Below, piece by piece: positions 20,922-52,835 of a DNA stretch of 64,000 bases (position 1 is its first letter; every line of letters begins with the position of its first letter). Made by a program: the position numbers and the translations under genes. Under the pieces are notes generated by a model. The model was not told where the DNA came from. It did no database searches and worked only from the letters and a program-made list of their open reading frames with translations. Source of the DNA: Hericium rajendrae (taxonomy: Eukaryota > Basidiomycota > Agaricomycetes > Russulales > Hericiaceae); the NCBI GenBank assembly GCA_033439255.1, contig CM065882.1:62001-126000 (forward strand), written 5' to 3'.

Positions 20922-21242
20922 ATGCCTGGAGAGACGCAGAAACAGCGGCGTCATGCGAGGCCCACCCCGCGCAACGTTCTGGGCCTTATCTTGCAACGCG
21001 TTCGATGGATCGAGCCACCTCAACATATCAACGCGCTCTCTTCATGTATCCTGTCCGAACGGGAGGCCCTGACTTGGATAGCCGGGGTTATCATGAAATT
21101 GAGCAGTGCAAGCGCAGGCGAGACGACCTGGACCACTACCGCTACCACGCCCATAGGCGCGCTTGGTTGCGGTGGCCAAGCCATCGCGAACGCCTCATTG
21201 CTCTGTCAATGTATCCTGTCCGAACGGGAGGCCCTGACTTAG
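20922..21242 (+). pseudogene. short reading frame with an internal 55-residue repeat
   Basis: From the ATG at 20,922 a frame of 106 codons runs MPGETQKQRRHARP... into SEREALTWIAGVIMKLSSAS, and meets a stop early in a second copy of the same 55-residue segment. The codons beyond the stop still match the repeat (IARVIMKLSSANVGETTW). I do not recognise the protein. It may be a decayed gene or a fortuitous frame over a duplication. Confidence 0.3.
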
Positions 21243-21370
21243 ATAGCCAGGGTTATCATGAAATTGAGCAGCGCAAACGTAGGCGAGACAACCTGGACCA
21301 CTACCACTACCACGCCCATAGGCGCGCTTGGTTGCGGCGGCCAAGCCACCGCCAACGCCTCGTTAATTGG
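21045..21370. repeat. 165-bp tandem duplication, two copies
   Basis: TGTATCCTGTCCGAACGGGA begins at 21,045 and again at 21,210, and the following about 155 bp match at roughly 90 percent or better by eye. The period of 165 bp equals 55 codons, so the duplication preserves reading frame. Confidence 0.85.
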
Positions 21371-24900: not shown

Positions 24901-25881
24901 AGCAGGACCGGGACGGAAGAGAAAGCGCACCGTCGATCCCTCATTCGAAGAGGCGGGCGCATCCCAGAGCCCATCAGGAGCGGCGGGTGCAATCGATGAC
25001 CCATCGGACGAGGCGGGCTCGGACCTGTGGATGGAGGTGAAGGGCACCGTCCTCGAGCTGCCTTGTCAGTTCGAGGAGAGTGTTAGGTTGCACCCTGCAA
25101 TGACCCAGGCGGTCTGCATCGAGTACCAATTGAGGGAGGGGCAAGCGAGCGACGCGCTCGATGATTTACGCTCGTACCTCATGACGAGTTATCTGGTGAG
25201 GGGGGAGAGTAAAGAGGCATCTGGGCAAGTGAAGAAGATGCGAGCCTATGATGTGGTGAAGGTCAGAAACGAGGCCGTAGCCTCCGCAGCACGACGCTAT
25301 CGACAAGCGCGGTTGAGACTGATAGCGTTGGGCTTGTCGAGCAAGGACACAAGATTCCGATCGTTGAGCGCCGTCGACGTGCGACCGTTCAAAGTTTTCA
25401 CCACGCAAGAGACACTTGGTGATAGTAGGCTTCGACCGTCGTGGATATGGTCGACTTTCGAGTTTATTGAGGACTTGGAGAATCCAAAGTTCAAGGAGTT
25501 TTGCCATGAACATACGGCCCATTTTCTCTCGCTGATGAAATACTAATGAACGGATCTCGGACAGGCGTCAAGGTGCATTGGTTCCGATGCAGTGCCCTGA
25601 GGAACCATTGGCGGGAGGAGATCAACCTTTTGGAAGAGGAAATGGCACGTATTGTACGATACTTCCGTTACTTCATGAATCTTTGGCATGGGCGCGCCGA
25701 GGGTCACGATGAGGCAGGAGAAACAGCGTTGGCGGCGTATGCACGAAAGTGAGTATACATGCCATTGACGGTTGCGCTTCTAACTCGTGATGGGAAAAAC
25801 AGGCAGGCATGGCGCCATTGTCAACTCTACGATCAGAGCATCGGGCTATTCACGTCGGTAGTTGACGTGACGTCGTTATAG
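21950..25881 (+). mobile_element. KDZ transposase 1 (CxC2 cysteine cluster plus DDE-type core)
   Basis: About eleven exons: 21,950-22,303, 22,358-23,002, 23,051-about 23,232, about 23,274-23,460, 23,517-23,653, 23,709-24,121, 24,174-24,371, 24,420-24,537, 24,589-about 25,500, one exon from about 25,563, and 25,803-25,881. Exon 1 is a disordered Ser/Pro/Gly leader with KKKAR. Exon 2 has the CxC2 cluster (CPRCQ, CYDCY, CKQC, then NPFHRVESW). The core follows: CPACPQPGIN, HTVDGNFHSN (first Asp), STCNQFAAM, LQKGERYFNV, GYDINCQYR (second Asp) and KAPECIWSTLN (Glu), matching the KDZ order. The C-terminal third is helical and charged. One in-frame TGA sits at 23,216-23,218, where CGA would give Arg, so a CGA to TGA change is likely. 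Otherwise the frame is open, so the copy looks recently disabled. Confidence 0.88.
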
Positions 25882-26514
25882 ATGGGTGGTGGTGTGCGTT
25901 AGCGGGATACCGAGGTATTGTTTGCATAGGTGGGCTGGCCAATTTATGATTATCTCGCGCATGAAGAGCGTGCAAAAGTGCACTGACAAATGTTCCACCG
26001 CATGCGTCCGCCATCGAATTTGCCAAAGCTCCCTCCCTCGTGTCCCGCTCTCGCGCCACTCCTCCACGCGCTCCTGGCCGGCGTGTCAGCCACGCTGTGT
26101 CTCACTGTGCCAAGGGGAGCGAGTGACTCACAGTCTGTCCGCGCAGTGTCAGCGAAGAACACGCGACAGGCGAGGGCACACTAGACTTAGACCAAGCGGC
26201 ATGTATCGATGAGAAATTGCAGGAGATATCCCATATCGACGGAGGACCGTCTGCCCTGCACGCGGTCGGTCAACAATACAATGGAGAAGATATGGAGGAA
26301 GGCGAGCCCCAGAGCAAGCCTAGAAGATGGCGATGGTGTGCTTGATTTCTAGCAGCCATCCTCGGGCAGAAGGTGGCCGCCATCTTGCGGCACGTTGTCA
26401 CGCGAGGCAGGCCACACATGTCAGAGCAAGTCGGGAGCGACGGCAAGGATTTCGTGACGGGGCAAGGGCCATCTGTACCTGTCAGTCACGGTGTCCGTCT
26501 GAGCGGTCGGGCTC
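25882..26514. other. 3' flank of KDZ transposase 1, no gene
   Basis: No convincing gene. A plus-strand frame around 26,180-26,340 (containing DLDQAACIDEKLQEISHID) has ordinary amino-acid usage and could be a leftover exon, but has no start or partner exon. No transposon end for KDZ module 1 could be defined here; the inverted-repeat arm begins at 26,515. Confidence 0.3.
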
Positions 26515-27099
26515 ACCAGACCCTGTAGATCAGTTGCAACCTATACCAGTAGTAATAGGAGGGAGGGTTCCAACTGTACCAGTGACACTATAAGCAGTAT
26601 TTTCGAGCTAAATGCTATGTTTGGAACTTCACATGTTTTGCATAAAATATGTTTTGCATAGTAAAACATATCAAAAAACATGTTATATTCTTAAAAAAAC
26701 ATATCGGCCGAGATCTTAAGGATCTCGGCCACTATGACTACCTACGCTTGCCGACGCTTCTACATCCGCTCACCGGTGCTTATTTCGGTGCTTCCTCGCG
26801 CCCGCCGGCGCTTTCCCTCGCGCCCGCCGGCGCTCCACATGCACCCGCCGGCGCTTCACGCGCGCTCACCGGCGCTTCCGCGTGCGCTTTCCCTCCTGCT
26901 TATGGCGCCTACTACCTACTCCCACTCTCGCCCCGTGGCTACGCACGCGCTGCACGCAGGTTGCGCGCGCCATTCGCCGCACGCCCGCTGCAGAGCATGC
27001 ACGCCGTGGTCGGCACGCGCGCACGCGCCATCCCCTATGCTCGCCGCACCTCCGCCGATGGCTCCCGCGCGTGGAGTGCGCGGGCGGAATTCACGCGCG

Positions 27100-28010
27100 G
27101 ATGCCGGGGTGGAGCGGGCTCGCGGCTGGGATGCGCGGGGACGGCGCTGAAGCACGGGCTTGGGGCTGGTGCATGGGCGCGGGCTCGGCATTGAAGCGCA
27201 CCCGGCGCTGGGACCGTGGGCACGGGAACGGGGCTGGACGCGGGGTGGAGAGCGTGGGCACGGCGCTGCAGCGCACAGCCACGGTGCTGGGACGGCGCAG
27301 ATGGGGCTGGGGCCTGGGACGCGTGGAGCTGGGACGCATGCGGGCACTGCACTGGAACGGCGCGCGCGGGGATGGGTACGGTGCGCGCGGGGTGGAGACG
27401 GTGCGCACGGGGCTGGAGACGGCGCGCGCGGGGTTGGAGATGGCGCGGGGGACTGGAGATGGCGCGGGATGGCTGGAGACAGGCGCGCGGAGCTGGGAAC
27501 GGCGCGCGGAGCTGGAGATGGCGCGCACGGAGCTGGAGACGGCACACGCGGGGCTGGAGACGGCACACGCGGGGCTGTAGACAGCGCATGCGGGGTTGGA
27601 GACGGCGTGCAGGGCTGAAGACGGCGCGCAGGGGCTCGGGGACGCGCGCGGGAACTCAGGGATGGCGCGCGGGGACTGGAGGTGGGCGCGGGGACTGGAG
27701 GCTGGGACGCGGGGGGTTTGGACGCAGGGTCCCGGCGCCGGCGCTGGGGTGCACGGGCACGGGGCTGGGAGGTGTGGGGCTGGGACGCGCTGAGCTGGGA
27801 GGTGCAGGGCTGGAAGTGCGGGTGCGATGCTGGGGGGCGTGGCCACGGCGTTGGGACGGCGCGCGGGGCTGGGAGGCGTGCGGGGACTCGGGGCTGGGAC
27901 GCAGGGCTCGGGGCTAGGACGCAGGGCTCGGGGCTGGGACGCAGGGCTCGGGGCTGGGACGCAGGGCTCGGGGCTGGGACGCAGGGCGCGGGGCTGGGAC
28001 ACGCGGGTGA
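27100..28010 (+). repeat. ~20-bp GC-rich tandem repeats, outer block of left arm
   Basis: Variants of GGGCTGGAGACGGCGCGCGC recur about every 20 bp from 27,340 to 27,700, then near-perfect copies of GGGCTCGGGGCTGGGACGCA run at 27,890-27,990. All six frames stay open for long distances because of the bias, giving spurious proteins. Confidence 0.85.
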
Positions 28011-29619
28011 GTTTGACGGCGCGCGATTGCGAGCGTGGGGTCTTGTGTGCCGGCAAATGCCCCTTCATGGCGCGGGGAGGCGTCGCACGCGCGTTTGGAA
28101 GCGCGACGGAGGTGGGTAGTTGAGTGGCGGAGGCGTTGCGGTGCGTGGAGCGTGCCACGTCATCGCGTTATAAGGCTAAAGAAATCGAATTTCGTTATTA
28201 AAAATAGACATGGGGAGAGAAGAATAGAAAAACTTACGAACTATGAGGCTATTGAGCCTCGTACTGCTGCGCCCCGCTTGAGGGAGGGAGGGAACACAGA
28301 TAGCCTCGGCCAACGAGCTTGTGGCACGGTTCGGCAATTGCCGAATTAGGCGACCCGAGTCGTCGAAGACGGACTTTAAGAACAAATAAATTCACATAAA
28401 CCGTACAAATAATATGAGATGTGTAGATAGTCTGAATACAGTCGAATAAAAAGTTTTGTAAGGATAGAATGCAATGGAGGGAAGAAAATCCCGAGCCATT
28501 GATAAGAAAGTCTAAAACGCGCGTAAAGACTAAACGCGTCAAGCTCGAATCGAGGCCTCGGTCACGCCGGGCACAAGATTCGAGCTGCAATTGTGCAGTG
28601 CAACTTGCTCCCATCCTGTATCGGTTTATCACAGTGCACTAGGATATATATAATCAATGTATCTAGACTTTATTGTAATTTTAAGTGGTCTAGATCTTCA
28701 GGATCTGGTGATATACATGAATTTTCGGTTCCATGAGCTGTATTTTGTGTGTATCTCGGGCCTCAAGCTCTGGAATCGAGTCTAAAAAATTTCAAACTTC
28801 GTATGCACATTATTGATAGCATCAGAAATGATTTCGCGCAGCTAGATAGGTAAGAGATTCCGAAGTGAAGCCTCTGCTACATGAAATTCGAGTTAGGGTT
28901 ACTGTAGGGTTACAATAAGTCACTCATTGTGGCTCGAATTACTCTCTGAATCATTCAAGAATTTGTATGTACAATGTATTATATCATAGGTACATGAAAA
29001 CTGCTCCAATGAGGGAGAATACACTCCAGACGTCGTGCGGGGTAACACCCCTCCTGCAGCGTCGGGCACCTCGGTCTCAGCTGCCGATTCTCGGCAGTTT
29101 CCGAGCCGCGTCACAGCACGTACACGGCCCGTGCCCCTCGCGCCCCTCGGTACCCTCTCCGCTCCACTCCCCGTGCTCCCACCCATTCCCTGCCCTCCCA
29201 GACGCCTCTTCACGTCCTCCACGGCTTCCAGCAGCCGTCCGCCCTCTTCCACGCCCCTCGGACACGCATAGAAGCGCGTACAACGATCAGGATGCGCGTG
29301 AACACGCATGCAACAACACAGACGCGCGCCCGACACCCGCGGTCGTACACACGCAGCGCAGGAACTTACGGCCATGACAACACACCGCGCGCAGCCGCGC
29401 GGCCCCTAGACGTTGGGCATCGCGTCCTCGGTGCCTCTACATGCCGCGCGTCGCGTCCCCGCGGCTCTCAACACCCCTGCGCGCGACGCGCAGCACCCCG
29501 GCACCGGTACGTAGAGCTCTAGGATGCGGACGAGCACGCAAAGAACGCGCACGGCACGCAGAGGACGCGCACGGCCCATGGCCGACGAGCCACAACCCGC
29601 ACACCCCAGCAACGACCCG

Positions 29620-30090
29620 CGTCCCAGCAATGGCGCCGGGCTCCCAGCTTCTGCACCGCATGCCCAGCACCCGCGCCGCACGCCCAGCACCTCCACCGCA
29701 CGCTCAGCACCCGCGCCGCATGCTCAGCACCCGCGCCGGGCTCCCAGCTTCCGCACCGCACGCTCAGCACCGTGCCGCACGCCCAGCACTCGCGCCGCAC
29801 GCCCAGCACCTGCACCGCATGCCCAGCACCCACACCGCATGCCCAGCACCCCGCGCCGCACACCTGTTGCCTACGCGCAACACAACGGCGCGTGTGCCCC
29901 CTCGCTCAGCCCACCCAATGCCCGCGATGCACCCTCGCAATGCAGCAGCGGCGTCGTCAGCAGCGCCAACGGCGCTGATGACACGCGTCACGGCAGTAGT
30001 GCGGGGAGCAAGCGACGGCGGCGGGGAACGAGCGGCGTGCGGCGGGGAACGAGCGGCGTGCGGCGGGGAACGAGCGGCATGCGGCAGGTG
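29620..30090 (+). repeat. 20-21-bp GC-rich tandem repeats, inner block of left arm
   Basis: Copies of CCCAGCACCCGCGCCGCACG and variants fill 29,640-29,870. Three copies of a 21-bp unit with core GCGGCGGGGAACGAGCGGC follow at 30,020-30,085. The right arm has the same block but about four more copies of the 21-bp unit (34,290-34,430), so unit number differs between the arms. Confidence 0.85.
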
Positions 30091-30471
30091 CAGGCGCATG
30101 CGAGCGCGCGTGGTAGCCGAGATCGGGCGGGGCGGGCAGCGGCGCGCATTGACGAGGTCGGGCGAGGCGGGCAGCAGCGGGCGCGTAGCCGGGGTCGGGT
30201 GGGGCGGGTGGCGGCATGCGTGTAGCCGAGGCGGGAAGCGCGCAGGGCGGTGGACGGTGCCGAGGGAGCCTTTTGAGTAGGCGCGCTAAGCGCGCGTAGC
30301 GAGTAGTGTACGGCCCGAACTGTATTATATTTATAATGATTTTTTTCGGATTTGTAATCAGCAATTGAATGGTTCAGATTGGGTCCTGAACCCTCCCTTA
30401 TTATTGGTACAGTTTGCAACCCTCCCTCCTGTTATTACTGGTACAGGTTTAAAATGGGTTACAAGGACGCC

Positions 30472-31151
30472 TCAAGGACGGGGAAAGCCAAAGTCAGACC
30501 GCGGTCGCGGACGAGTCATCGCAACTTCGATCTGGGCGAATAACCCAGCGACTGAGAAAATGCTGGCCAGCTCCATCATCCAAATCATCTCGAGCACCCC
30601 ATCCCCTTCGTCCCCCTCATCTGGCCCCGTCTCTACGCCGAATCGCCATGCGTGAACGAGATGCGGTGTTACGGTATCATCGAGACCGGAAATGCCAGCC
30701 GGTGCGAGATGCGGATACGTTGTGTAGAGGTATAACCAATATTCCACGCGGTCTTGTGGTGGAAAGGATCGGGCGGACGGGGTTCCCGGAGGCATGTTGT
30801 GACGAGGGAGGTCTGGAGGGGGGTGGTTGAACATGGTAAGGGAAGGGAAATGCAGAGGAGAGACTGACCGGAATTCTGAGCTAGGCCATGACGTCGGTCA
30901 CGGATGAGAAGATGGAGGATGTCAATCCTGTCTTGCGCATCGTAGAAGTTGTGGATGACAGTGCCAAGGATTTCTTTCATTTCGTCACACTGTTCGCGAA
31001 GACGGTGTACTTGGCGAGAGGCGATGGCAACTGCTTGTTCCATCTGAGAAAGTTGCTCGCGCATCCGCTCGAATGAAGGTGAACGTCGGATCCCGGTGTG
31101 AGCAGTGTGGGCAGTTGCAGATGGCGAGGAAAAGGGAGAAAGAGAAGGCAT
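30472..31151 (-). CDS. coiled-coil protein truncated by the left element
   Basis: Two exons: 31,151 to about 30,870 and then to 30,472, joined over an intron GTCAGT...CTCCAG. Exon 1 is Ser/Pro-rich, then helical (MREQLSQMEQAVAIASRQ, RLREQCDEMKEILG), a likely coiled coil. Exon 2 contains VEYWLYLYTTYPHLAP and ends GFPRP. The stop codon (30,472-30,474) is formed across the boundary of the 4-kb element, so the natural C-terminus has been cut off or replaced. I do not recognise the family. Confidence 0.55.
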
Positions 31152-31426
31152 GATCAGCACGAAGAGCGAGTGGGTTGGGAGACGGGAAGCAGCGGGTGGA
31201 AGAGATAGCAGTGAAGAGAAAGAGGAGGAACAGGGACATATTTATACTACTCACGAGCAGGCGACTGCGAAATGACTTGAGGTCGACACCCGGAATGTCC
31301 GTCTGCAGCTTGCAGGAAGAAGGGTGCAAAGGTGTTGGAAATCCGCCCGGACCAACAGCCCAGACGGCAATGATCTTCAATGTGAAATGTCTACATGGGA
31401 CCAGTTGTCCTGAGCAAGAACACATG

Positions 31427-31590
31427 AACAGTTGTCGCCTACACATGGCGAACAAGCGCCACATAGAACAGTTGTCGCCTATACACGGCGAACAAGCGCC
31501 ACATAGAACAGTTGTCGCCTAAATGCACGGCGAACAAGCGCCACATAGACCAATTCTAGCCTATACACGGCGAATAAGCATGACGTAGAC
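31427..31590. repeat. 40-42-bp tandem repeat, about four copies
   Basis: Units beginning AACAGTTGTCGCCTA start at 31,427, 31,467 and 31,507, with a degraded fourth near 31,550. Each contains GGCGAACAAGCGCC. It lies between the coiled-coil gene and the LINE fragment. No gene is seen in 31,152-31,600. Confidence 0.85.
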
Positions 31591-31599
31591 GACACGAGG

Positions 31600-33035
31600 C
31601 AGACAACCTTGCTCGCATCTTTGGAGCATGTTCAGCATGCATTTTTTTGCCGCTTATTAGGTCTCTCCGCCCGGTCGACGCTCGCCTTCCTCTATACCGA
31701 GACAAGTTTGGAACCGCTGCGCTATCGCCGCGTGCAACTCCTCCTCCTCCCATTCGTTCACTACGCCTCGCTGCAGCCGCCGGACCGCCTCGTATGCCAT
31801 GCATTCCGCGCATTTCTCCACTTGGCGGCTGATGGCGTGCCCGGATGGGCTTCAGACGTTATTTATGTCCTGCACACTCTGCCTCTCCCGGTACACGTCA
31901 TGCTGTCCGTTATTGACAGCAAAGAAAATACCAGACATTCTCGCACGTGTTACCGCTTCCATGCGCACACATTGGTCTGCTGTCATCAACGCTTCCCCTC
32001 GTGCGACGCTTTTGAATGGACGGACGGAGATTGTACATCACGGTGAGTTGCCCAGCCAGCCGGTTTTCCATTTCAGGCCTTATCTCCAGGTCCGAATCCC
32101 ACCACACCGACTAGCCCTCACACGCCTCCTCTTCACCGACCACCATCTGGCTTGCAAGGACCTGCGCCGTCCTTCTGCACATCAGCCTCGCACGCCTTTG
32201 TCACTTCTGTAAAGCAGCTGTAGAATCCCCCGAACATGCCTTGTTGGAATGCTGTGCTCACCCGTCACTTTGCTCCCTCCGCACTTCCTTCCTCGAACGT
32301 GCCTCTCAGTTCCTGGGTCCAACGCGCTCTCGTACGCTGTTCGGGTCTCACGATACACGCTCGATCACAAAGAGCCTTGTGCACGAGCGGGGCATCCTCG
32401 ACATGCTTGCGAAGTTCACCTTCGATGTGCTCGAGGTCTTTGCTGCCTCGCCCGTGTTCATTCATCCTTCTGCACAAGTTTCGCATGTGGTATGTCTCTG
32501 TTTGCTCGTGCGCTGGCCGGTCCCTCACACTCTTGTCGTGTCTCTATGGGACGTTGTCTAGGATTGACCCGGTCTCATAGCCACGAGGTTCTCGCACGCA
32601 TGGGTTTACCCTCGTGGGAGGTTTTCCTGCCGCGGGCTCATCCCCGCTCGGTACTGACCCGGTTTTGCCATGGCGTCGGTTTTGGTCTCATCTGAGGTTT
32701 TCCTTTGCATGGATCTTTCATCGGGTCGTGATTCATGTGTCTTGTGGCGGCCTGGTTTACCCACACACAGGTTTTTCCCTCAAAAAGATATTTTCCTGGT
32801 GTGGGTTTTTCATCAGTTCACCCGCTACACTGCTCTCTCTGTTCAATTCTGTGTGTTTGTCTTTTCTACTTTGTCGTCTATGTGCGTCATCCTCGACAGC
32901 GATCGGAGTAGTTACATGACTTGAGTGTACATAGCGTAGTTTGTGCCTGACTATGTAGTATGAACACCGCTCTGTTCCGGAATGGGACCACTGCGGAATA
33001 AACCTTCCTTTCTTCCTTCCTTCATCACTCAAGCC
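31600..33035 (+). mobile_element. LINE (non-LTR retrotransposon) 3' fragment
   Basis: Plus-strand frames match my memory of the extreme C-terminus of fungal Tad-like LINE ORF2 proteins: FCRLLGLSARSTLAFLYTE with LEPLRYRRVQ in one frame, then PHRLALTRLLFTDHHLA, then the zinc knuckle CHFCKAAVESPEHALLEC in others. The needed frame changes several times, so the copy is decayed. The reverse transcriptase and endonuclease domains are absent, as expected for a 5'-truncated LINE. The end near 33,000-33,035 (AATAAACC then TTCCTTTCTTCCTTCCTTC) may be the 3' tail. Confidence 0.6.
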
Positions 33036-33297
33036 GCGGGCTGCGGCTTTGGTATGGCCATCGACCATCTCATTGTCATGAACACTGACATGTCCTGGAA
33101 CTCAGAGCAGAGTGATGTGGAGCAAGCGAATCAATACCAGTGCATTGTACTCTCATGACTGTGTTATTCGAAAGTACTCTAAGCCTATGCCGTAGGAACA
33201 AATAGCACATCATCGCAGACCGGTTGCCCATGCAGTTCACAGAAATGCAGCAGACATTGTCCAAGGGCACCAAAACCTGGCTCTTGGATCAGAAGGC

Positions 33298-36200
33298 TCA
33301 CCGACGTGCAGCAGCCTTCTTTTTCTCCGCAGTCTCCTGTCTCTTCTTGTAAGCAGCGGCATTCTTTTCCCGTTGGGCCGTCTGCTCTGGAATGATCCTA
33401 CGACAACAATGATTTTCGAATTTCCACCAGTCAATGACATGGCATACTCACATTGCCATCTTCTTAGTGGGCACCCGTGTGCGGCCGCTCCGCTTGCTGG
33501 GAGAGCCAAGCAGGGCTTCAGACAAGACGGCTGGAGGGGGTGCAGCCCGGGACGACTGATGCTGTGACTTTTGCTTCTCAGGTGCAGCTGGGGCATCCGA
33601 TGGTGATTGTATCTTTCCCCTCTTCTCGATCTGAGCCCGAGCAGGCAGAGCCTGTTTGCGAATTCTCTTGCTGGGACCAGCAGATGGTGCAGCTGCAGGC
33701 AACATATTCTTTCCAGTGGTTTCAGAGTATGCTGTGTAAGCATTCTCTAGATCCTCCTTCATGGTAATGCATTGCGGTTCAACATACTTTCCGAGGTAAC
33801 GGAACGGAATTGTAGAGTTCTGAACATAGTCCGGGACCCCTGCATCAGGCCGACTTTCATCATCAGAGTCCGATGCACCCATCTGTGCAGTTTCAAGGAG
33901 GCGTCCTTGTAACCCATTTTAAACCTGTACCAGTAATAACAGGAGGGAGGGTTGCAAACTGTACCAATAATAAGGGAGGGTTCAGGACCCAATCTGAACC
34001 ATTCAATTGCTGATTACAAATCCGAAAAATCATTATAAATATAATACAGTTCGGGCCGTACACTGCCGTACACTACTCGCTACGCGCGCTTAGCGCGCCT
34101 ACTCACCGTCCACCGCCCTGCGCGCTTCCCGCCTCGGCTACACGCGTGCCGCCACCCGCCCCGCCCGACCTCGGCTACGCGCCCGCTGCTGCCCGCCTCG
34201 CCCGACCTCGTCAATGCGCGCCGCTGCCCGCCCCGCCCGATCTCGGCTACCACGCGCGCTCGCATGCGCCTGCACCTGCCGCACGCCGCTCGTTCCCCGC
34301 CGCACGCCGCTCGTTCCCCGCCGCACGCCGCTCGTTCCCCGCCGCACGCCGCTCGTTCCCCGCCGCACGCCGCTCGTTTCCCGCCGCACATTGCTCGTTC
34401 CTCGCCACATGCCGCTCGTTCCCCGCCGCCGTCGCTTGCTCCCCGCACTACTGCCGTGACGCGTGTCATCAGCGCCGTTGGCGCTGCTGACGACGCCGCT
34501 GCTGCATCGCGAGGGTGCATCGCGGGCGTTGGGTGGGCTGAGCGAGGGGGCACGCGCGCCGTTGTGTTGCGCGTAGGCAACAGGTGTGCGGCGCGGGGTG
34601 CTGGGCGTGCGGTGTGGGTGCTGGGCATGCGGTGCAGGTGCTGGGCGTGCGGCGCGAGTGCTGGGCGTGCGGCACGGTGCTGAGCATGCGGTGCGGAAGC
34701 TGGGCGTGCGGCGCGGGTGCTGAGCGTGCGGTGGAGGTGCTGGGCGTGCGGCGCGGGTGCTGGGCGTGCGGTGCAGAAGCTGGGAGCCCAGCGCCATTGC
34801 TGGGACGCGGGTCGTTGCTGGGGTGTGCGGGTTGTGGCTCGTCGGCCATGGGCCGTGCGCGTCCTCTGCGTGCCGTGCGCGTTCTTTGCGTGCTCGTCCG
34901 CGTCCTAGAGCTCTACGTACCGGTGCCGGGGTGTTGCGCGTCGCGCACAGGGGTGTTGAGAGCTGCGGGGACGCGACGCGCGGCATGTAGAGGCACCGAG
35001 GATGCGATGCCCAACGTCTAGGGGCCGCGCGGCTGCGCGCGGTGTGTTGTCGTGGCCGTAAGTTCCTGCGCTGCGTGTGTACGACCGCGGGTGTCGGGCA
35101 CGCGTCTGTGTTGTTGCACGCATGTTCACGCGCATCCTGATCGTTGTACGCGCTTCTATGCGTGTCCGAGGGGCGTGGAAGAGGGCGGACGGCTGCTGGA
35201 AGCCGTGGAGGACGTGAAGAGGCGTCTGGGAGGGCGGGGAATGGGTGGGAGCATGGGGAGCGGAGCGGAGAGGGTACCGAGGGGCGCGAGGGGCACGGGC
35301 CGTGTACGTGCTGTGACGCGGCTCGGAAACTGCCGAGAATCGGCAGCTGAGACCGAGGTGCCCGACGCTGCAGGAGGGGTGTTACCCCGCACGACGTCTG
35401 GAGTGTATTCTCCCTCATTGGAGCAGTTTTCATGTACCTATGATATAATACATTGTACATACAAATTCTTGAATGATTCAGAGAGTAATTCGAGCCACAA
35501 TGAGTGACTTATTGTAACCCTACAGTAACCCTAACTCGAATTTCATGTAGCAGAGGCTTCACTTCGGAATCTCTTACCTATCTAGCTGCGCGAAATCATT
35601 TCTGATGCTATCAATAATGTGCATACGAAGTTTGAAATTTTTTAGACTCGATTCCAGAGCTTGAGGCCCGAGATACACACAAAATACAGCTCATGGAACC
35701 GAAAATTCATGTATATCACCAGATCCTGAAGATCTAGACCACTTAAAATTACAATAAAGTCTAGATACATTGATTATATATATCCTAGTGCACTGTGATA
35801 AACCGATACAGGATGGGAGCAAGTTGCACTGCACAATTGCAGCTCGAATCTTGTGCCCGGCGTGACCGAGGCCTCGATTCGAGCTTGACGCGTTTAGTCT
35901 TTACGCGCGTTTTAGACTTTCTTATCAATGGCTCGGGATTTTCTTCCCTCCATTGCATTCTATCCTTACAAAACTTTTTATTCGACTGTATTCAGACTAT
36001 CTACACATCTCATATTATTTGTACGGTTTATGTGAATTTATTTGTTCTTAAAGTCCGTCTTCGACGACTCGGGTCGCCTAATTCGGCAATTGCCGAACCG
36101 TGCCACAAGCTCGTTGGCCGAGGCTATCTGTGTTCCCTCCCTCCCTCAAGCGGGGCGCAGCAGTACGAGGCTCAATAGCCTCATAGTTCGTAAGTTTTTC

Positions 36201-39200
36201 TATTCTTCTCTCCCCATGTCTATTTTTAATAACGAAATTCGATTTCTTTAGCCTTATAACGCGATGACGTGGCACGCTCCACGCACCGCAACGCCTCCGC
36301 CACTCAACTACCCACCTCCGTCGCGCTTCCAAACGCGCGTGCGACGCCTCCCCGCGCCATGAAGGGGCATTTGCCGGCACACAAGACCCCGCGCTCGCAA
36401 TCGCGCGCCGTCAAACTCACCCGCGTGTCCCAGCCCCGCGCCCTGCGTCCCAGCCCCGAGCCCTGCATCCCAGCCCCGAGCCCTGCGTCCCAGCCCCGAG
36501 CCCTGCGTCCTAGCCCCGAGCCCTGCGTCCCAGCCCCGAGTCCCCGCACGCCTCCCAGCCCCGCGCGCCATCCCAACGCCATGGCCACGCCCCCCAGCAT
36601 CGCACCCGCACTTCCAGCCCTGCACCTCCCAGCTCAGCGCGTCCCAGCCCCACACCTCCCAGCCCCGTGCCCGTGCACCCCAGCGCCAGCGCCGGGACCC
36701 TGCGTCCAAACCCCCCGCGTCCCAGCCTCGAGTCCCCGCGCCCACCTCCAGTCCCCGCGCGCCATCCCTGAGTTCCCGCGCGTGTCCCCGAGCCCTGCGC
36801 GCCGTCTTCAGCCCTGCACGCCGTCTCCAACCCCGCATGCGCCGTCTACAGCCCCGCGTGTGCTGTCTCCAGCCCCGCGTGTGCCGTCTCCAGCTCCACG
36901 CGCGCCGTCTCCAGCTCCGCGCGCCGTTCCCAGCTCCGCGCGCCTGTCTCCAGCCATGCCGCGCCATCTCCAGTCCCCCGCGCCATCTCCAACCCTGCGC
37001 GCGCCGTCTCCAGCCCCGTGCGCACCGTCTCCACCCCGCGCGCACCGTACCCATCCCCGCGCGCGCCGTTCCAGTGCAGTGCCCGTGCGCGTCCCAGCTC
37101 CACGCGTCCCAGGCCCCAGCCCCATCTGCGCCGTCCCAGCACCGCGGCCGCGCGCTGCAGCGCCGTGCCCGCGCTCTCCACCCCGCGTCCAGCCCCGTTC
37201 CCGTGCCCACGGTCCCAGCGCCGGGTGCGCTTCAATGCCGAGCCCGCGCCCATGCACCAGCCCCAAGCCCGCGCTTCAGCGCCGTCCCCGCGCGTCCCAG
37301 CCGCGAGCCCGCTCCACCCCGGCATCCGCGCGTGAATTCCGCCCGCGCACTCCACGCGCGGGAGCCATCGGCGGAGGTGCGGCGAGCATAGGGGATGGCG
37401 CGTGCGCGCGTGCCGACCGCAGCGTGCATGCTCTGCAGCGGGCGTGCGGCGAATGGCACGCGCAACCTGCGTGCAGCGCGTGCGTAGCCACGGGGCGAGA
37501 GTGGGAGTAGGTAGTAGGCGCCGTAAGCAGGAGGAAAAGCGCACGCGGAAGCGCCGGCGAGCGCGCGTGAAGCGCCGGCGGGTGCATGTGGAGCGCCGGC
37601 GGGCGCGAGGGAAAGCGCCGGCGGGCGCGAGGAAGCACCGAAATAAGCACCGGCGAGCGGATGTAGAAGCGCCGGCAAGCGTAGGTAGTCATAGTGGCCG
37701 AGATCCTTAAGATCTCGGCCGATATGTTTTTTTAAGAATATAACATGTTTTTTGATATGTTTTACTATGCAAAACATATTTTATGCAAAACATGTGAAGT
37801 TCCAAACATAGCATTTAGCTCGAAAATACTGCTTATAGTGTCACTGGTACAGTTGGAACCCTCCCTCCTATTACTACTGGTATAGGTTGCAACTGATCTA
37901 CAGGGTCTGGTGTTTCAAGATCCCGGAGCAGTTGCCCATATGCCAAGGCCACCTCCATCAGTGCTGGTTTGCTCAAGATGTCTCCATCGCAATTACGCCA
38001 AGGCGTCTTGGGGTCCAATAGCCACTGTATCTCAGACTTGGGATTCACATTGGCATGAACACGGCGCGGCAACCATGGCCTTGGATAGTCAAATGTAGCC
38101 CAGTCAGGATGGTCTGGGTCTGCTGTAGTGCGATGTCCCTGCTGAAGGTATGATCAAATAACCAACATGACATATATTTTGGGACAGCGTACCCTGCACA
38201 ATGAGATCTCCAGCACGAGGTCTTGATACAACTGCAGTCCAGAAAGACCGCTGAGGAAGGCAAACTTGGCTTTTTCATTTTTTGCCGAGTTTCCTGGTGT
38301 TTTCAGCGGACTGCCATCTGAGTCCAGACCGACTTGTGGATCAATCCGAGCCTTGTTTTTGGACTTATTGTTCGAAGGCATGGTCCCCGCACGCCGTTCT
38401 CTAAGCTGTTGCAAAGCCTTAGCTTTCCCAGCATTTGTCACTCGTAGACTAGTTTCCAATGGCGTAACGTCTTCGACATCATCCACATCCTCCTCTTCAG
38501 ATCTGAAAGAGCCCAGGTCGAAAAACTCTCCATGTTCGTCGTAACCATTATGATCCTTTGTCCGAGCATTTTTGCGACCCGAGGGAATGCCAACCATCTC
38601 GACATCCTTCTCAGCTTCCGCGTCCGAGACATCCTGAGGGTTGGGCACATCCCGGTCTGCAAACCGCGCTTGAATTTCCTTCCGTCGACAAATCCGGACA
38701 GTCTTTCCTCCCCCGGTGTTGCCCTCGCTGTCAGATGGAATCTCCATCACAGGGGTCCACTCGCCCTTCACGACGACCGCCTTGAACTCTAATACAGTGA
38801 GGCCATCGGACTCCCGGTTCTGCCAGAATTCGATGATGGGTTTGAGTTCCTGCCTATTAATGCGTGATGGATCTTCCCAAACGTATCCCGTAGGAAGGTA
38901 CATCGGGTCAATGTAGTTCTCGAAGCCGTCAGCTTTTATCTTCGCCCAGGGAATTGCCGATGCCTTCAGATTGGCGCATGCTGATGAATTAATGCATTAG
39001 CCGGGCCAAGCATGTTCATCACAGAAAATACACACCGTAATGAAAGGTTAGAAACTCCCTTATCAGCGATATCAACAAATCTGGCGTGTATTCTTCGAAA
39101 TCCGCAGGTATTGTAACACCTCCGTCTGGATTGTAGATCAACTGTAGAGTTGGTTTCCTGGACTTCTTGACTGCGTGGCCCGGTTCATTGGAATCATCCC

Positions 39201-40325: not shown

Positions 40326-41924
40326 ATGCTGTACAGGCCGAATGAGGAATCCATCACCGGCAATCTCCTGCCGAAGCACATGTGGATAGCCGAATGCTTG
40401 GTGACAAACCTCTGCCACATCAAAGACTGTGACCAACCAGCCTTACTTTCCGCGCTGATCCTCATTTCCGCTCATTCCCCAAGTGAGATGTCCGAAGTCG
40501 AAGCAATCTCAATCTATCTGAAACACATGTTTCATTGCTATTTGGCTAACCACCAGAAGGTCGACTTTGCCAATCCTGCCCCGATCCCATACTGGATGCT
40601 GTCATCCAGCCTGCGCTGCGAGCTGGATTATATTGCCCGGGAGTTGGTTGCTGCTTTTCTAAACCGTAGTATGTGTATCAATTTGAAAATGAGATGATTG
40701 AAAACTGATGTAACTTCAGTCCGGATGACTTGGGATGCACAGCGTTACGCCAGCCGCATTCCGAAGAAATACACCGGACTCAACTCACCGACAGAAGCAT
40801 CCCTACACCGGCGTTACCCGGGCCTAACCTGGGGTACCAACAATATCTCGTGGCCTCTGATTGATGTCCCAATGACGGTCTCAGATACACACACCAATCA
40901 CCTGGTGTGGTACCTACCAGGTGTGCTGTCCCTGGAACGACAGGTGGCAACTCGCATTTGACATCACCCGTCATTGTGTTGATCAATTGCTTGTGCAGGC
41001 CATCATGTTCAATGCTGCAAAGATCCTCGAGCCCCTCTTCCAAAGGAGCTGGACTGAAATTTACAGAAAGAATGGGCCGACGAATCCAGGACCAGCAGGA
41101 TCGGGCATTGTCAAGTCCGCGAAGCAAGCAGCAGGCTCGAGGTCCAAGGGAACGAGGTCCGAAGCCATGAAGTCTCTGACTCGTCATGCTCAAAACCTTT
41201 ATCATAATCCGGTAGTCTGCACCTTGCATCCTGGCTTTGTAGATTTGTCCCCAGCATGGTTTGCACTCGGCCATGAGGTATGAGACCCTTCCTTCTATCG
41301 TCGATGTAGAATTCAGTGTGTACCTGGATTTCGCTGTAGGACACTCACTTTCCCCTCTACACGTCTGTCTCCCTCAAGACCCAGCGGGCAAAAGAATGGC
41401 TGCTAGCATTCCAGGAATCAGGCGCAATCATGAGTGCAATTCTTGGGGTCATATACCCAGAATTACACGAGGCTGGCATATGCACGTTGGAACGGCTCAG
41501 AGATATGCCGGAGTTTCGTGAAGTGATGTGCCACTGGACATCTGCATTTAGTGGTGTCTCGATCATCTCTAACCGGGCCACCATGCCGCATAGAGATATG
41601 GGAGGTCGCGCCGAATGGCCAGATCTCCTGGCGACGATCGGCACATATCCTGATGCAGAACTGCACCTCCAGAATCTCAACCTGAGGTTTGCATACAGGT
41701 CCGGGACACTAGCTGCGGTCTGCTCAAAAATGGTAATCCATGCAGTCCCAGAATGTGAACCGGACAGGGTGTGTTATGCATTTTGGATGAGAGATGCAGT
41801 GCACGAGCGCATGATCGTCAAAGCACCGGACTGGTGCAATGACAGTCAGTTCAACATCCCATCCGAACCCGACGTAACGGACGAGTCATCGCAGACTCAC
41901 GCATCATTACCTTTTTCATTGTAA
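40326..41924 (+). CDS. 2-oxoglutarate/Fe(II) dioxygenase, fungal TET/JBP-like class
   Basis: Likely oxidises 5-methylcytosine or a related DNA base in the nucleus. Exons: 40,326-40,668, 40,720-41,277 and 41,340-41,924. The N-terminal part is helical; the catalytic domain is in the last exon. The iron ligands are visible: His and Asp in TMPHRDMGGRAEW and the distal His in CSKMVIHAVPECEPDRV, followed by the 2-oxoglutarate-binding Arg in DRVCYAFWMRDAVHERM. This arrangement matches the mushroom TET/JBP-like dioxygenases known to be associated with KDZ transposons. Near 40,930-40,960 the frame shifts by one base between WYLPGVLSLERQ and WQLAFDITRHCVD, so a very short intron, a mutation or a misread base needs to be considered; it is upstream of the catalytic exon. 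It lies between the companion gene and KDZ transposase 2. Confidence 0.82.
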
Positions 41925-42080: not shown

Positions 42081-45000
42081 ATGCCACCCAGAGTGAAGAA
42101 AGGCCGTGGCATACGGATCGTCGTGCAAGAAGAACTTGAGACTGGGCGTGGAACATGGAAAGTCAGTCAGCCAGCGGCTCAACCCAAGCAAACCAAGGAG
42201 GCCGATGATGCCTCATCAGACCGGAATGGAAGCGGAAAGTGTGCCCGTGCTGACAGAAAGGGTGATTCGTCACGGACTACCCGCCAAGGATCTACAGCCA
42301 AGGCCGATGGAGCTGCACACGTCTCCCCAGAAGCTCCGGTCATGACCGAGCAAGACTGGGAGCTGTATCATGCCCAGTCACTTAAACCGCGGAAACTCCG
42401 TGTACGTCTCCAGCTTTGGAATTCATTTCTGTCCTAATATCATTCATGTAGACAGACCGAACATGGCTGACCAAATGGACAGACACCAAAGATGACTACA
42501 TTCACACGATTCTCCAGGGTGAGGCCCGAGAGGACACATGCGCCACAGTGCAATGCAAACGGAAACCCGAATGGCGGTGCAAGGACTGCTTCTCCAGTCC
42601 GCAATTCTGCACAAAGTGTTGTAAAAGGTGCCACAGTCATTTGCCATTCCACCGTGTTCAAAAATGGACCGGTACGCATTATGAGCCGGCTTGGCTCAGT
42701 GAACTCGGCGTTCTCATATATCTGGGACATGCTGGCTCACGCTGTCCGTCTATTGCTGGGAATGGCCATGATTCAGATAGCGCAGAATCCAGGACGACTG
42801 TTTCTTCCGGGATGACTCCTCGACCATCCAGCCATTCTATTCAAGACCCGAACCATTCATTCACAGCATTCCGTTCACCATCAAGTTCTTCCTCCCGAGG
42901 CCCTTCACCCCCTGCCACGAATGACATCCTATCAGGTTCAGAGGATGGGTACTCAAAGATCGGTAATTCAGAAGTTGTGTCACAGGCTGCTACGACTTGT
43001 CCGCCATCTCCAAGTGAATCGACTACCACCAGCAACACCAGCAGGTCACATATCCGGTCAGTCTTAGAGACCGTCCATGTTGGTAGAGGCCACCGGAAGG
43101 AGAAAGAAGGGACCATTTCTACTGTGACTTCCCAGGAACCCCACATTGATGACTCTGACACTGATACTCCAGCCACATCCATGCATTTACTCCCCAATCG
43201 TCGCATCACTAGTACTCATGGAGACACAGGGGATATTGGACGATCAGCCGGGCTGGTGTCCGATGTACTTTCAGAATCTGAGGCTGAGTCACTACCAGCT
43301 GCCTCCAAATCCATGCGCGGCCGCCTCATCACACGACCTCATCACAGCCGACAACCATCCCCATCACCACCCACACCCTTATCATCAACCCGAAGGATGA
43401 CTACACGCTCACATAATGGAGCTCAGTCCAACGACGACCACCAAGGACTGGGGCCCAATTGTAGGACACCAAGTCCGGTGCCTACCATCCACTTTGATGA
43501 GTTCCAACGTGCTTCTGCCTACATGGCGAAGACTGAACAGGAAGCCATAGAATGTGGTGTCTTCCAGAAGGACCGGCCATGTACGCTAGCTGCGAGCCTC
43601 CTTGATGACGATGATTATGTCCATGAGAATGATGGAGACACCGATTGGGAGCATGTCAACGAGGAAGATACCTTGGCGGAGGCTGAACGTCAGGCCCGGA
43701 GTCAGAGGCTCCATGCTAGCGAAGATACACCGGATCATATCCTGACCATTGTTGATCGGTCCGGAGTGCACGAATTAGGAGTGGTGAACTGCTATTGCTC
43801 TACTGATGAACCACTGCACCGTCAACTCCTTCGGAGCAATCTATTTCCAGCATCATTCCGTTGGCCCCAGACTGCGTTCACATTCCAGGTGTTAGAAGAC
43901 TGTCGTTTGGACAATCTTGAATGCAAAACCTCATTTTTCCAGTTCTTCGGAAAGCTCCATCGACTAACCAACCCTGCCTTTCCGGATTCGGTTCCTGTTG
44001 CGTTGCATGCCTTAACAGTTCTCTCATTGGCACTAACACATTCTCATAGGACCATTATCGGGAACTTATGTGGTCTCTGCGGGTATGGAGGCACCTGCAG
44101 TATATGCGATGGCATGGTTTCGGTCATCGCACTGACATGCCAGGAAATGGAGACTTGGCATTATTCTGTCCCACATGTCCTCAACCAGGAGAAAACATGC
44201 TGCCTGAAGACCGACTGTGAGTCCATTATTTCCCATCCAATTCTCTTCGTTGACTGCTGGTTTTCAGTGACCTCGATGCACGTATACAAATGCAGGATGG
44301 CAACTTTACTGCCCAGCTGGAGAAGATGAGAAGACCGGACAACGATTTTGCTTTGAGCGATGGCACCGGGTTCATGGTCGAGAGCAAAAGATACCATCAA
44401 CATCTCCGCAGCAATCGGGAGGTCAGGCAAGAGGTGCAACTAAGTAGCATATTGCATTATGTGGTCGGTAACCGTTTTGCCTGCAACAGCGATCCACATG
44501 CAATGACCACCGCGCGGTGAATCAAGCCAATGCCCGGAAGAGTAATTTATACTCATCCGGTTTGGGGTCCGCTGCCTGCATGCATGGGGCATTTATACCA
44601 CACACGACAGTGGACTTTCAAAAGGGTGAACGGTAGGTGTATCTCTCTGTCAGTCCACAAAGATAATGTTGTGCTGACAGATAGTCTGCAGTCAAGTCAA
44701 TATGGATTACTCCATCTGCCAAGGGTTGGGGTACAAGTCGCAAGGTCTGACTACAGCGAGACTCTTGTATGACATCGCTTGCCAGTGGTTTGTCAATTTC
44801 TACTCACGTGTGGACCGGAGCGAATTTTTGGAACTACCTTCGAACATGGAAATTATATCCGGTATTGGTCTTTTCCACATCCACGGTCACTGGCAAGAAT
44901 GCCTCGCTCGGTTTTCACCAACGTTCATTCCGGGCACATGCCAGGTGGATGGGGAGATATTGGAGACATTGTGGGCTCCTTTGAACGAGATCTCACGAAG

Positions 45001-46593
45001 TACGAGAGGGATGTCTATCTCTCACAGGAGGGAGATTTTGGATGATCACATGAATGACTCAAATTGGAAGAAGCTTGTACACAGCGGTATGCATGTTTCG
45101 ATCATTGTATGAGCTCCCTGACCAGTACTGAAAGTCGGGAGCAGTGAAGTCATTGTGCAAGAAGTGGAAGAAGTCAGCAACAGGTCTCGAGATTGCTGAG
45201 ACAGCATTCGCAGATTTTGATCACACAGTGCCTGACGACGTCCATGATGGATGGAAGAAGATAGAAGAGACTGCACAGAAGAACCGCTTACGGGATATAA
45301 AAGCAATGGACATATATGATTTGCAGATCGACGGACATATGCTCCCAGCCATCCTCAGCCTGGAGAACAATTGCTAATGTCATAGACAGTACCAGGAAAA
45401 GCGGAAATGGAAAACCGACTTGTGGCTGCAGTGGAGTCTGACAGGCTTCGTGGTTGCACTGCATGGATTCACTCGGGACTCAAGATAGAAGAGGCTCAGT
45501 GCGTTGTCCGATTTACCATTCCTTTATTCTGACGGAGCCAATGGTCATGCTAGGCTACAGCTGGCAGCATACGTCCGAAGCGTTGGTAAAACTGCTACAT
45601 TAAACCAGCAGAACACCATCGCAGAACGACGACGACGGCTGCAGACCCAAATTGATCAGTTTGAACGGCGGAGTCTGCCTTACATGTCCGAAGGTGAGGA
45701 TTGGATCCCCGGATTCACTATCGGACGGATGATCGATGACGGCGCCGAATACGATGAACTATGGGAGGACGTCCGCACTGAATATTCGAGACCTCTCATC
45801 GACGACGATGCAGCAATTCCGCCAGAGCGCGTTGCCCTTCCATTGCCCTCCACTGTGGGAAAGGCACTGGCCACTACTCATGGACTTCACGGCGTGTTGG
45901 AACAGGAAATTGACCTTCGGATCGGGCAAATGAACGATGCGCTTAGTCAGCTCTGTATAGCTCTCAGCGAGAAGGCATTCCAGTTCCGGACGAAGGTGCG
46001 GGCGGCCCGCAGATCACAACGAAAGCGGACAAGGGCTTGGGCAGATATTGAGACTACAGACAAGGTTGTCCAACAGCAGTGCCGTGTCTACAACCGAGCA
46101 CGATGTGCTCTAAACAGCCTTGGGCTTGCAGATTCTGACACATTGAAGACTTATAAGGTCTTGCACCGGTCGGACTTACGGGCGCAGACATTTGTCATTG
46201 ACTCAAGCATGCGGGGATCTCGTAATGAACCTCTTTCATGGTTCTGGAGACTGGGACGGAAAGGCGAGAATGACAGTAAATGGACAATGGAATGTGGGTC
46301 CGGTCTGCTGCATTCAACATGATCCCTGCCACTGATGGAGAATTGTAGTTTATCGTGTTCACTGGCTACGGTCTCGGGCCCAGATGAAGCAATGGCGTGC
46401 GGAGCGGGAAGCCCTTCCAAGGGAGATGGCACGAACGATCAATTACTTCACCAAGAGGGCAGAACGGTGGGGAAAATGGAAGGCCAACAACACAGATCCA
46501 GGGCACCAAAGCTATGCCTCCAGACAGATGGCACTCTGGATTAGCATGGCCAATCAGGCAGAGAGTGCATTTGCAGAGGCATTGGCACAATAG
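42081..46593 (+). mobile_element. KDZ transposase 2 (CxC2 cluster plus DDE-type core), largely open
   Basis: Ten exons: 42,081-42,401, 42,452-43,996, 44,050-44,216, 44,268-44,433, 44,490-44,632, 44,692-45,086, 45,145-45,336, 45,390-45,498, 45,554-46,293 and 46,349-46,593. Exon 2 carries the cysteine cluster (CKDCFSSPQFCTKCCKRCHS, then HLPFHRVQKW) and a long disordered Ser/Pro/Thr insert. The core follows in KDZ order: CPTCPQPGEN, QMQDGNFTAQ (first Asp), RSTCNDHRAV, DFQKGER, LYDIACQWF (second Asp) and VDGEILETLWAPLN (Glu). The C-terminus is helical (ARRSQRKRTRAW, VHWLRSRAQMKQWRAERE). No stop was found in the joined frame, but the seventh intron begins AT rather than GT (45,337) and may be a mutated donor. 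It ends 295 bp from the convergent Zn2Cys6-motif gene. Confidence 0.9.
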
Positions 46594-50853: not shown

Positions 50854-52835
50854 ATGTCAACCGGATCAAGTTTCCAGATCTTGAGGCAAGTCCGGCGGGA
50901 TCTTTCATCCATCAATGTTTGGATTACTGACTACTCGCATCCCCTTCCAGGATTCCTGTACACCCTGACCCAGTTGATATAGAACAGCAGCGAGCTGCCA
51001 TTGACGAGGAGCTAAACCAGCTACTCCTCCTCACCCTCGATGCTCGTGCCTGGCGAAACAGATTATCACCCCTGATCCGCATCCCCACCGAAGTGTGCAC
51101 GCGCATAGTCCATTTTCTCGCTGCCAACCAGCGGCCGGGTCCCAAAGACCTAGGGTGGGTCAATGTCACCCATGTCTGCCGCACTTTGAGATCCAGGGCA
51201 CTCGAGGATCCAAGCCTCTGGACTACCATCAGCGACGGACTCCGTACGCCATTGCGAAACGCAATGGTCATCCGGTCCCGGTCTCTGCCCCTCTCTTATT
51301 CTATCACCTACACCAGATGGAACCCCCCTACCTTGGATACTGTCGAGCTGCTCTCCAGAACAATCCATCGCATCCGCGACCTTTCCCTCCAAAACTTTTT
51401 CGTCAGCAGCATGCAAAACCTCTGGCCATCCATGGCCCATCCAGCCCCAATGATTGAATCGGTGATTTATGCGCTCCCTAGATGGTCCTCCTATCAAGGT
51501 ATCGATATGCTCCCCGCTGACCTCTTCGACAATCATGCTCCATTACGTAAGATGACGCTTCGTTGCGTCGTCCCGGTGTGGTCCGGGAGTATTCTACGTG
51601 GTCTCACCAATCTCCACATTAATAATAAATCCACCCGATCAGATCTGCTAAATATTGATCCTGACCACAAGATTATTTTCGACCATCCATCGGACTATGT
51701 AGCATCTGAAGAGGCACCTCCTGTTGCTCCACCCAGCGTCAACGCTTTTAGAGAGATGCTCGAAGCTCTCGGTCAGATGTCCAACCTTCAAATGCTGTTT
51801 CTCTCCCACTGCTTCCCTCCTCTCCCCTCCCCTCCTCCCGTCGTGCCTGTGGTCACATTCGGTTCTCTACAAAAATTCACATGTCAGGACAAATCATTCC
51901 TGCACATGGCACATGTCATCAAGCACATCACTGTACCTCCCTCTTGCAAGATCCTCATCCTCGGCGATCACCCTCAGGCCGGCGAATTTGCCCCACTCAC
52001 AACATTCATTGATAGCCACATCTCACCCCATCCCCTGAGCATGCGCATCGGTTTTATCTCTTATAACCTAGCCTGGGACATCTACTTATCAGGATATCCT
52101 CCCTTCTCCGATCACACCGGCCATCCCACCTTTGACCCAGATCTCCCGAACATCTCGGTTGTCATGTACGCCAATACCGATGGGTATGACGATGAGAGAC
52201 CTCCAGAGAGGCGCCCCATGATAGAGGACCTCAATCATGTCCCAAGCACAGAGACCAAACGTCAGATACGGCATCTTGTTCTGGACTTTGGAGAGGACCA
52301 CGGTTTGGAACACTGGGACAATTACATCATCGAGAAGATCACTTTTCGCGACTGGCTCTCTGGTTTCCATGCCTACACCGGCATTGAAACCATCGCGGTG
52401 AAGGGCGACAGTGGCCGTACGCTCTGTATGGCTTTAGCCGCACCCCGCTCCTTTATGCCCCCTCCTCCGGAGGAAGATGAAGTCGAGCCGATCACAATCC
52501 TGGACTCAGATGAAGTCGACGAGGTCCCAATGCCAGACTCGTTCCCGCACCTCTTCAGAAATCTATTACGTATCGAGTTCATGGAAGTCGATTTTAATAC
52601 AAGTTACCCCAGGCCTCGGGATAGTCCGTGGTCCATATATGAGGTTTCTCGTCCTTCCTATGCCATTGGCTACATTCTCAAGCAATCCCTGTCCCATCGC
52701 TATGCGGCATTTGGGACACGGCTCACTCTCATCATCAAGCATTGCACAATCATGATCAACCAGGTGGAGGAGCTGCGAAGCCTTGCAGATGTAGAATGGG
52801 ACTATCTGCAGTCTCCGTTGACAGGAGAGGATTGA
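50854..52835 (+). CDS. F-box-like protein
   Basis: Two exons: 50,854-50,885 (MSTGSSFQIL) and 50,951-52,835. The 65-nt intron has a GC donor (GCAAGT) and ends TTCCAG. After a helical lead (EELNQLLLLTLDARAW) comes the F-box-like core, IPTEVCTRIVHFLAAN, then GWVNVTHVCRTLRSRALEDP and SLWTTI, which fits the F-box-like domain expanded in mushrooms. F-box proteins bind Skp1 and bring substrates to SCF ubiquitin ligases. The remaining 500 residues have leucine-rich, LRR-like spacing without a regular repeat I can count, and an acidic loop near residue 470. Length about 638 residues is normal for the family. The frame is intact. Confidence 0.85.

Follow-up and report, generated by a model that had tools for sequence, protein, structure and literature searches.

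Miniature inverted-repeat transposable elements (MITEs) and other non-autonomous DNA transposons have no coding capacity and have their ends in common with a coding partner. Among the transposons of the KDZ (Kyakuja-Dileera-Zisupton) superfamily, Kyakuja elements are described as producing 7-bp target-site duplications and as having CA..TG ends without inverted repeats (Kojima 2025, PMC12730594), and the same account gives 8-bp duplications for Zisupton and for a Dileera family, and 7-bp duplications for hAT7, found in rusts. KDZ elements of Cryptococcus neoformans have been shown to move, and that study reports no mobilisation of clearly non-autonomous copies (PMC12810828); for the motifs at the termini of KDZ and Plavaka elements, the Marasmius genome paper refers to its supplement (PMC8290104). 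Here we analyse a window, i.e. a whole stretch of 64,000 nucleotides, from Hericium rajendrae (C5:62001-126000, contig CM065882.1), in which two gene-less elements of about 4 kb, called arms A and B, lie close together in opposite orientation. An earlier note had presented them as a giant inverted repeat; we consider them most likely to be non-autonomous transposons of the KDZ superfamily, moved in trans. Coordinates without a contig are positions in the window, and genome searches covered 46.8 Mb in 19 contigs.

Arm A (26514..30473, plus strand, 3,960 bp) begins with CACCAGACCC and ends with GACGCCTC, and arm B (33898..37912, minus strand, 4,015 bp) belongs to the same family; the ends of both were set by aligning the arms with each other and by comparison with other copies. 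The earlier note had described two facing arms of about 3.96 and 4.01 kb with few differences, each of them a full unit bounded by imperfect terminal inverted repeats, and our comparison bears out both points, each arm being one base longer at its 5' end. BLAST aligned A with B in two pieces (97.8% over 3,574 bases and 93.1% over 478 bases, E 0), and a global alignment of 3,921 aligned positions contains 55 substitutions, of which 53 are transitions and 48 fall in CpG context, as well as six gaps ranging from 1 to 84 bases. The imperfect terminal inverted repeat extends over 45 columns with a local alignment score of 63 (best of 300 shuffles at most 22), and its core in A occupies 26538..26581 on the 5' side and 30405..30449 on the 3' side (both given on the plus strand).

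As far as tested, neither arm appears to contain a recognisable gene, in agreement with the "non-coding" of the earlier description. Ten open reading frames (ORFs) of 129-456 aa taken from within the arms have no match in Pfam and are mostly Ala/Arg/Pro/Gly-rich readings of tandem arrays in several frames and on both strands; Rfam has no match across 26000-38400, and among the KDZ matches listed (172 in the genome) none lies inside a 4-kb or a 7.8-kb copy of the family. A 129-aa ORF of the central core, which both arms have uninterrupted, was rejected as a gene because each of the 12 other copies examined has stops in it. Tandem arrays with units of 15-37 bp account for 1,133 of the 3,960 bases of A. 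Three G+C-rich arrays (units 15-21 bp) are located in its 5' half at 27353..28000 (27353-27700, 27760-27822 and 27861-28000; plus strand), and arrays of 20- and 21-bp units in its 3' part at 29623..30085 (plus strand; counterparts in B at 34586-34774 and 34278-34446).

The units are members of a family of which the genome contains no fewer than 19 copies with both ends; further copies, for which the earlier note proposed a search, do exist. At least 121 matching pieces were returned by a genome-wide search with the unit. A pattern describing the inverted-repeat core had 46 matches (reversed control: 0), a 3'-end pattern 21 (reversed control: 0) and a 5'-end pattern 46 (reversed control: 4), the last of which allowed two mismatches and hence also picks up unrelated sequence. 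One 7.8-kb copy (C17:154369-162192) was left out of the comparison because its flanks equal those of another C17 copy, leaving 18 distinct copies; the two (C17:62315-70138 and C17:154369-162192) are in opposite orientation with identical flanks and apparently represent an inverted segmental duplication. The ends are near-constant across the family (CACCAGA..TGTA...GACGCCTC), with the terminal dinucleotides CA..TC in 17 of the 18 copies and CA..TT in the remaining one (L017). The 7-bp flanks are identical at 7/7 positions in 11 copies (B, L004, L005, L006, L007, L008/L025, L011, L016, L018, C1:564342 and C1:577704) and at 6/7 in two more (L013 and L023). In eight of the 11 perfect cases only a duplication of 7 and not 8 bp is possible, which places the first base of the element at the C at 26514; in the other three (B, L006 and C1:564342) both lengths fit, owing to the next base. 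A related end, CACCAGACCTTGTAGGCAGTT, was matched ten times (C1:489014, C1:490895, C3:172766, three sites on C4, two on C7, C10:1740648 and C18:191511), and ends of this type possibly mark another family with similar termini.

The 3.4-kb "spacer" of the earlier note does separate the arms, but it is not unique sequence: 30474..33897 (plus strand) is the interior of a multicopy transposon with TET and KDZ genes, of which 15 other full copies at 97-99% and one split copy are present. This host element covers 30474-33897 and continues from 37913 to at least 46319; no termini of its own were located, and its high-identity matches in the genome extend to at least window position 55769. B is flanked by the duplication CTTGAAA, read on the minus strand, at its 3' end (33891..33897) and its 5' end (37913..37919), and all seven host copies fetched (L036-L042) are unbroken through the sites of both B and the right end of A. 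Together, the duplication and the empty site in 7/7 relatives make B a plain insertion into the host. The family shows hallmarks of cut-and-paste transposition, namely near-constant ends, 7-bp duplications and empty sites.

The junctions of A are different. The 7 bp to its left (TCGGGCT, 26507..26513, plus strand) lie within another repeat, and the 7 bp to its right (AAGGACG, 30474..30480, plus strand), which do not match them, within the TET/KDZ host. The repeat on the left (25310..26513, plus strand) occurs also at C8 (L032) and C4 (L033), and C1 (L034) has a more distant match to its final part; in all three it continues without the element. Since A has no target duplication, its junctions may result from two insertion events, from one insertion followed by loss of the left flank, or from a misjoin. 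We suggest that the original sequence at the left junction was later replaced by a different repeat, the simplest route being recombination between two unit copies and deletion of what lay between them; the copies fetched did not include a reciprocal product. The copy L003 exhibits a pattern resembling that of A: its left flank matches window 54266-55769, the sequence beyond its right end matches 52035-52256, and about 2 kb of the host are gone. At L003 and C3:2341674-2342918 a family copy stands beside a 3' fragment that abuts an opposite 5' fragment, which constitutes a second rearranged site. According to this reconstruction, the inverted repeat would have arisen when two near-identical units ended up 3.4 kb apart and in opposite orientation at one copy of the TET/KDZ transposon. 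The palindrome itself is incidental and results from separate insertions, and with a target duplication of its own for B and an empty site in each of the seven host relatives, the "giant inverted repeat" is not supported as an object in its own right.

A candidate coding partner was identified on contig C14 (C14:1146628-1190709). It starts with CACCAGACCCTGTA and ends with ACAAGGACGCCTC, and GATGAAG is present on both flanks (7/7). Its 3' end is at C14:1146628; the 5' end was not found within about 11 kb of it and was located by a pattern search 44 kb away, at C14:1190709. The 5' end of A matches that of the C14 element over 166 bases (77.7%, E 1.6e-26), and the 3' ends align over 77 columns with a score of 80 (maximum of 300 shuffles 36). 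Near the C14 3' end are ORFs in which a KDZ domain (92.6 bits) and a CxC2 domain (150.3 bits) were recognised, and the last conserved ORF of this gene stops about 480 bp before the shared 3' terminus, with its coding strand directed towards it. The ends and the 7-bp duplication are common to the units and to one KDZ-coding element only, read over about 17 kb of its 44 kb. The 4-kb units would be moved in trans by the KDZ transposase of such a larger relative, and G+C-rich tandem arrays in the subterminal regions may help it to bind. The C14 stretch (L044, L047, L049 and L052) is either a giant, cargo-bearing transposon or one enlarged by nested insertions. 5' ends of the coding type occur at three places (L045 on C9, L046 on C1 near the contig end, and C14:1190709), with a long antisense ORF behind them, of up to 475 aa in C14; those of L045 and L046 have no match in Pfam.

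A paralogous KDZ gene on contig C17 (L048), whose product shares 74% identity with the C14 protein along 102 residues, is likewise followed just downstream by an end of this kind, GGACGCCTC. The oxygenase-like gene upstream of it (L048:1135-3132) was not called TET, as its Tet_JBP score is 12.9 bits (cut-off 34.9) and it has no match in the PDB; a stretch related to it (52% identical) adjoins the C14 KDZ gene. Plavaka transposases (PF18759) were rejected as partners: the genome contains 132 matches, and among the matches listed none lies between paired family ends. The abundance of KDZ and Plavaka matches, like the CcTet-related protein noted below, is in keeping with a fungus and probably an agaricomycete.

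A and B are by far each other's closest relatives (98.6%; at most 87.7% for other pairs involving either, 13 copies aligned). Their divergence outside CpG sites (0.23%) is similar to the average of the host copies (0.19%), which indicates a similarly recent date for the pair and for the burst of the host. At CpG sites the corresponding values are 5.1% and 3.1%, and for A and B the divergence at CpG is 22 times that elsewhere. A concentration of transitions at CpG is the usual mark of cytosine methylation, and the differences between A and B would mostly represent CpG decay, as expected for methylated repeats. The central core of the element (positions 1524-2652, in A 28037..29165 on the plus strand; 1,130 bases with 77 CpGs) contains no difference between the arms, where 10.5 would be expected from the site classes (P ~3e-5); in 5,000 simulations with an equal number of changes the longest empty stretch was 982, none reaching 1,130 bases. 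When L003-L006 are compared pairwise, each of the six comparisons reveals 6-20 CpG changes in the same core. Two of these copies that lie on C3, L003 and L005, resemble each other in the core more than other pairs do.

The earlier note had named gene conversion as a possible effect of the inverted arrangement, and the empty core lends this some support. The difference-free core is most simply explained by conversion between the inverted arms; a core that is unmethylated or less methylated in A and B, or chance among few changes, could give the same pattern. That the near-identity of A and B is due to a considerable extent to conversion, in addition to recent common origin, we hold only tentatively, at rather less than even chances; young host copies diverge to a similar degree at non-CpG sites, so that recent origin explains the overall similarity. 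Such conversion is compatible with the interpretation of the arms as KDZ-type transposons, and the arms may have been partly homogenised in this manner.

The placement of the family relies on comparison with published descriptions. Like the Kyakuja elements of Agaricomycetes, as they are described, it has 7-bp duplications and a CA start, its coding relative has a KDZ transposase together with a CxC cysteine cluster, and the genome contains many TET/JBP genes; unlike them, the 4-kb units have no recognisable gene. With Zisupton it has inverted repeats in common, and with Zisupton and Dileera the KDZ transposase, here on the coding relative, whereas the duplications reported for those groups are of 8 bp. 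The KDZ1-3 elements of C. neoformans are likewise from a basidiomycete and have inverted repeats and a KDZ transposase with a CxC domain (found here on the coding relative), but they are autonomous, 9-11 kb long and have inverted repeats of 139-241 bp, and their duplications, as reported, are of 8 bp (KDZ1) or 4-8 bp (KDZ2 and KDZ3), compared with 7 bp here (PMC12810828). Compared with a typical MITE, the units are far longer (~4 kb) and contain long tandem arrays. Given the 7-bp duplication, the CA..TC ends and the imperfect inverted repeat, we assign the family to the KDZ superfamily; its duplication length puts it close to Kyakuja, but we do not class it as Kyakuja. The earlier note called the element apparently undescribed; no description of the family was found in the literature searched, although a similar Repbase entry may exist, and the family can be attached to a known superfamily. 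It is a new non-autonomous family of transposons of a known type, with a good candidate partner.

Several observations weigh against this assignment. The ends are CA..TC and not the CA..TG given for Kyakuja, and there is a 45-column inverted repeat where Kyakuja reportedly has none. No target duplication is found in five of the 18 copies (A, L003, L014, L015 and L017). The C14 stretch also holds a TET/KDZ gene set (C14:1165143-1167986), and eight Tet_JBP matches elsewhere in the genome score similarly to it, which suggests that the 44 kb are probably inflated by nested insertions; strictly, the KDZ gene near the 3' end could itself be a nested passenger. In C17 the similarity of the 3' end is marginal (score 34, shuffled maximum 28), and neither a matching 5' end nor a duplication was found for that locus (L048). 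The units could belong to another superfamily with 7-bp duplications, for instance hAT7, for which this length is also reported (PMC12730594), with the C14 KDZ gene as a passenger. We regard this as unlikely, since the C14 KDZ-CxC2 gene lies next to the shared 3' terminus and faces it, and the C17 paralogue likewise lies just upstream of a GGACGCCTC end.

That the palindrome is an artefact of assembly, with one 4-kb copy duplicated or misjoined, was a concern already voiced in the earlier note. The length and similarity of the arms would invite such an error, and the mismatched flanks of A, without a target duplication, are what a misjoin at a repeat would produce. However, the arms are separated by 55 substitutions and six gaps, their flanks differ, and B joins its surroundings in the manner of a clean insertion, at a site that is empty in the relatives fetched; a misjoin at A would still account for its odd junction but would leave B as it is. 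The concern is accordingly weakened for the pair, for which we find an artefact quite improbable, and persists in part for the left side of A. An origin of the pair by inverted segmental duplication, to which the exceptional closeness of A and B could point, is very hard to reconcile with homology that ends at the element termini on both sides and with a target duplication belonging to B, and we give it hardly any weight.

To the right of B, the genes of the host element follow in the order TET/JBP dioxygenase, CxC2 domain and KDZ transposase domain, all on the plus strand. The TET/JBP ORF (41340..41921, stop to stop) contains a Pfam Tet_JBP match at 41394-41792, and its nearest solved structure is CcTet (7vpn, E 1e-18); the Tet_JBP profile has 46 matches in the genome. 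The ORF with the CxC2 cysteine cluster is at 42452..44326, and the KDZ transposase match at 44630..45064 has one TGA within it. Another member of the 4-kb family, L005 (C3:2353790-2357587), is inserted inside the TET/JBP ORF of a different host copy, at the equivalent of window positions 41381-41388. Elsewhere in the window, 21044-21361 is a direct tandem duplication with a 165-bp unit (1.9 copies, 93% matches).

Family copies are present in two TET/KDZ host elements, in one of them inside the TET/JBP ORF. We speculate, as a rather doubtful extension of the above, that there is a lineage of giant KDZ transposons (one of 44 kb with an intact 7-bp duplication) with cargo genes, accompanied by gene-less 4-kb satellites that use the same ends, contain CpG-dense arrays and repeatedly land in TET-carrying KDZ elements. 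If this were true, the arrays could bind the transposase, or they could act on DNA methylation by attracting or absorbing it. Mushroom genomes commonly contain KDZ transposons, and the sources cited here say little about the ends of these elements or about their non-autonomous partners. The case also documents rearranged junctions (A, probably L003), divergence mainly at CpG sites and a sign of conversion between inverted copies. Now that the ends of the family are defined, the length of its duplications is measured, empty sites are known and a candidate for the coding partner is named, mobilisation in trans by a KDZ transposase becomes testable.

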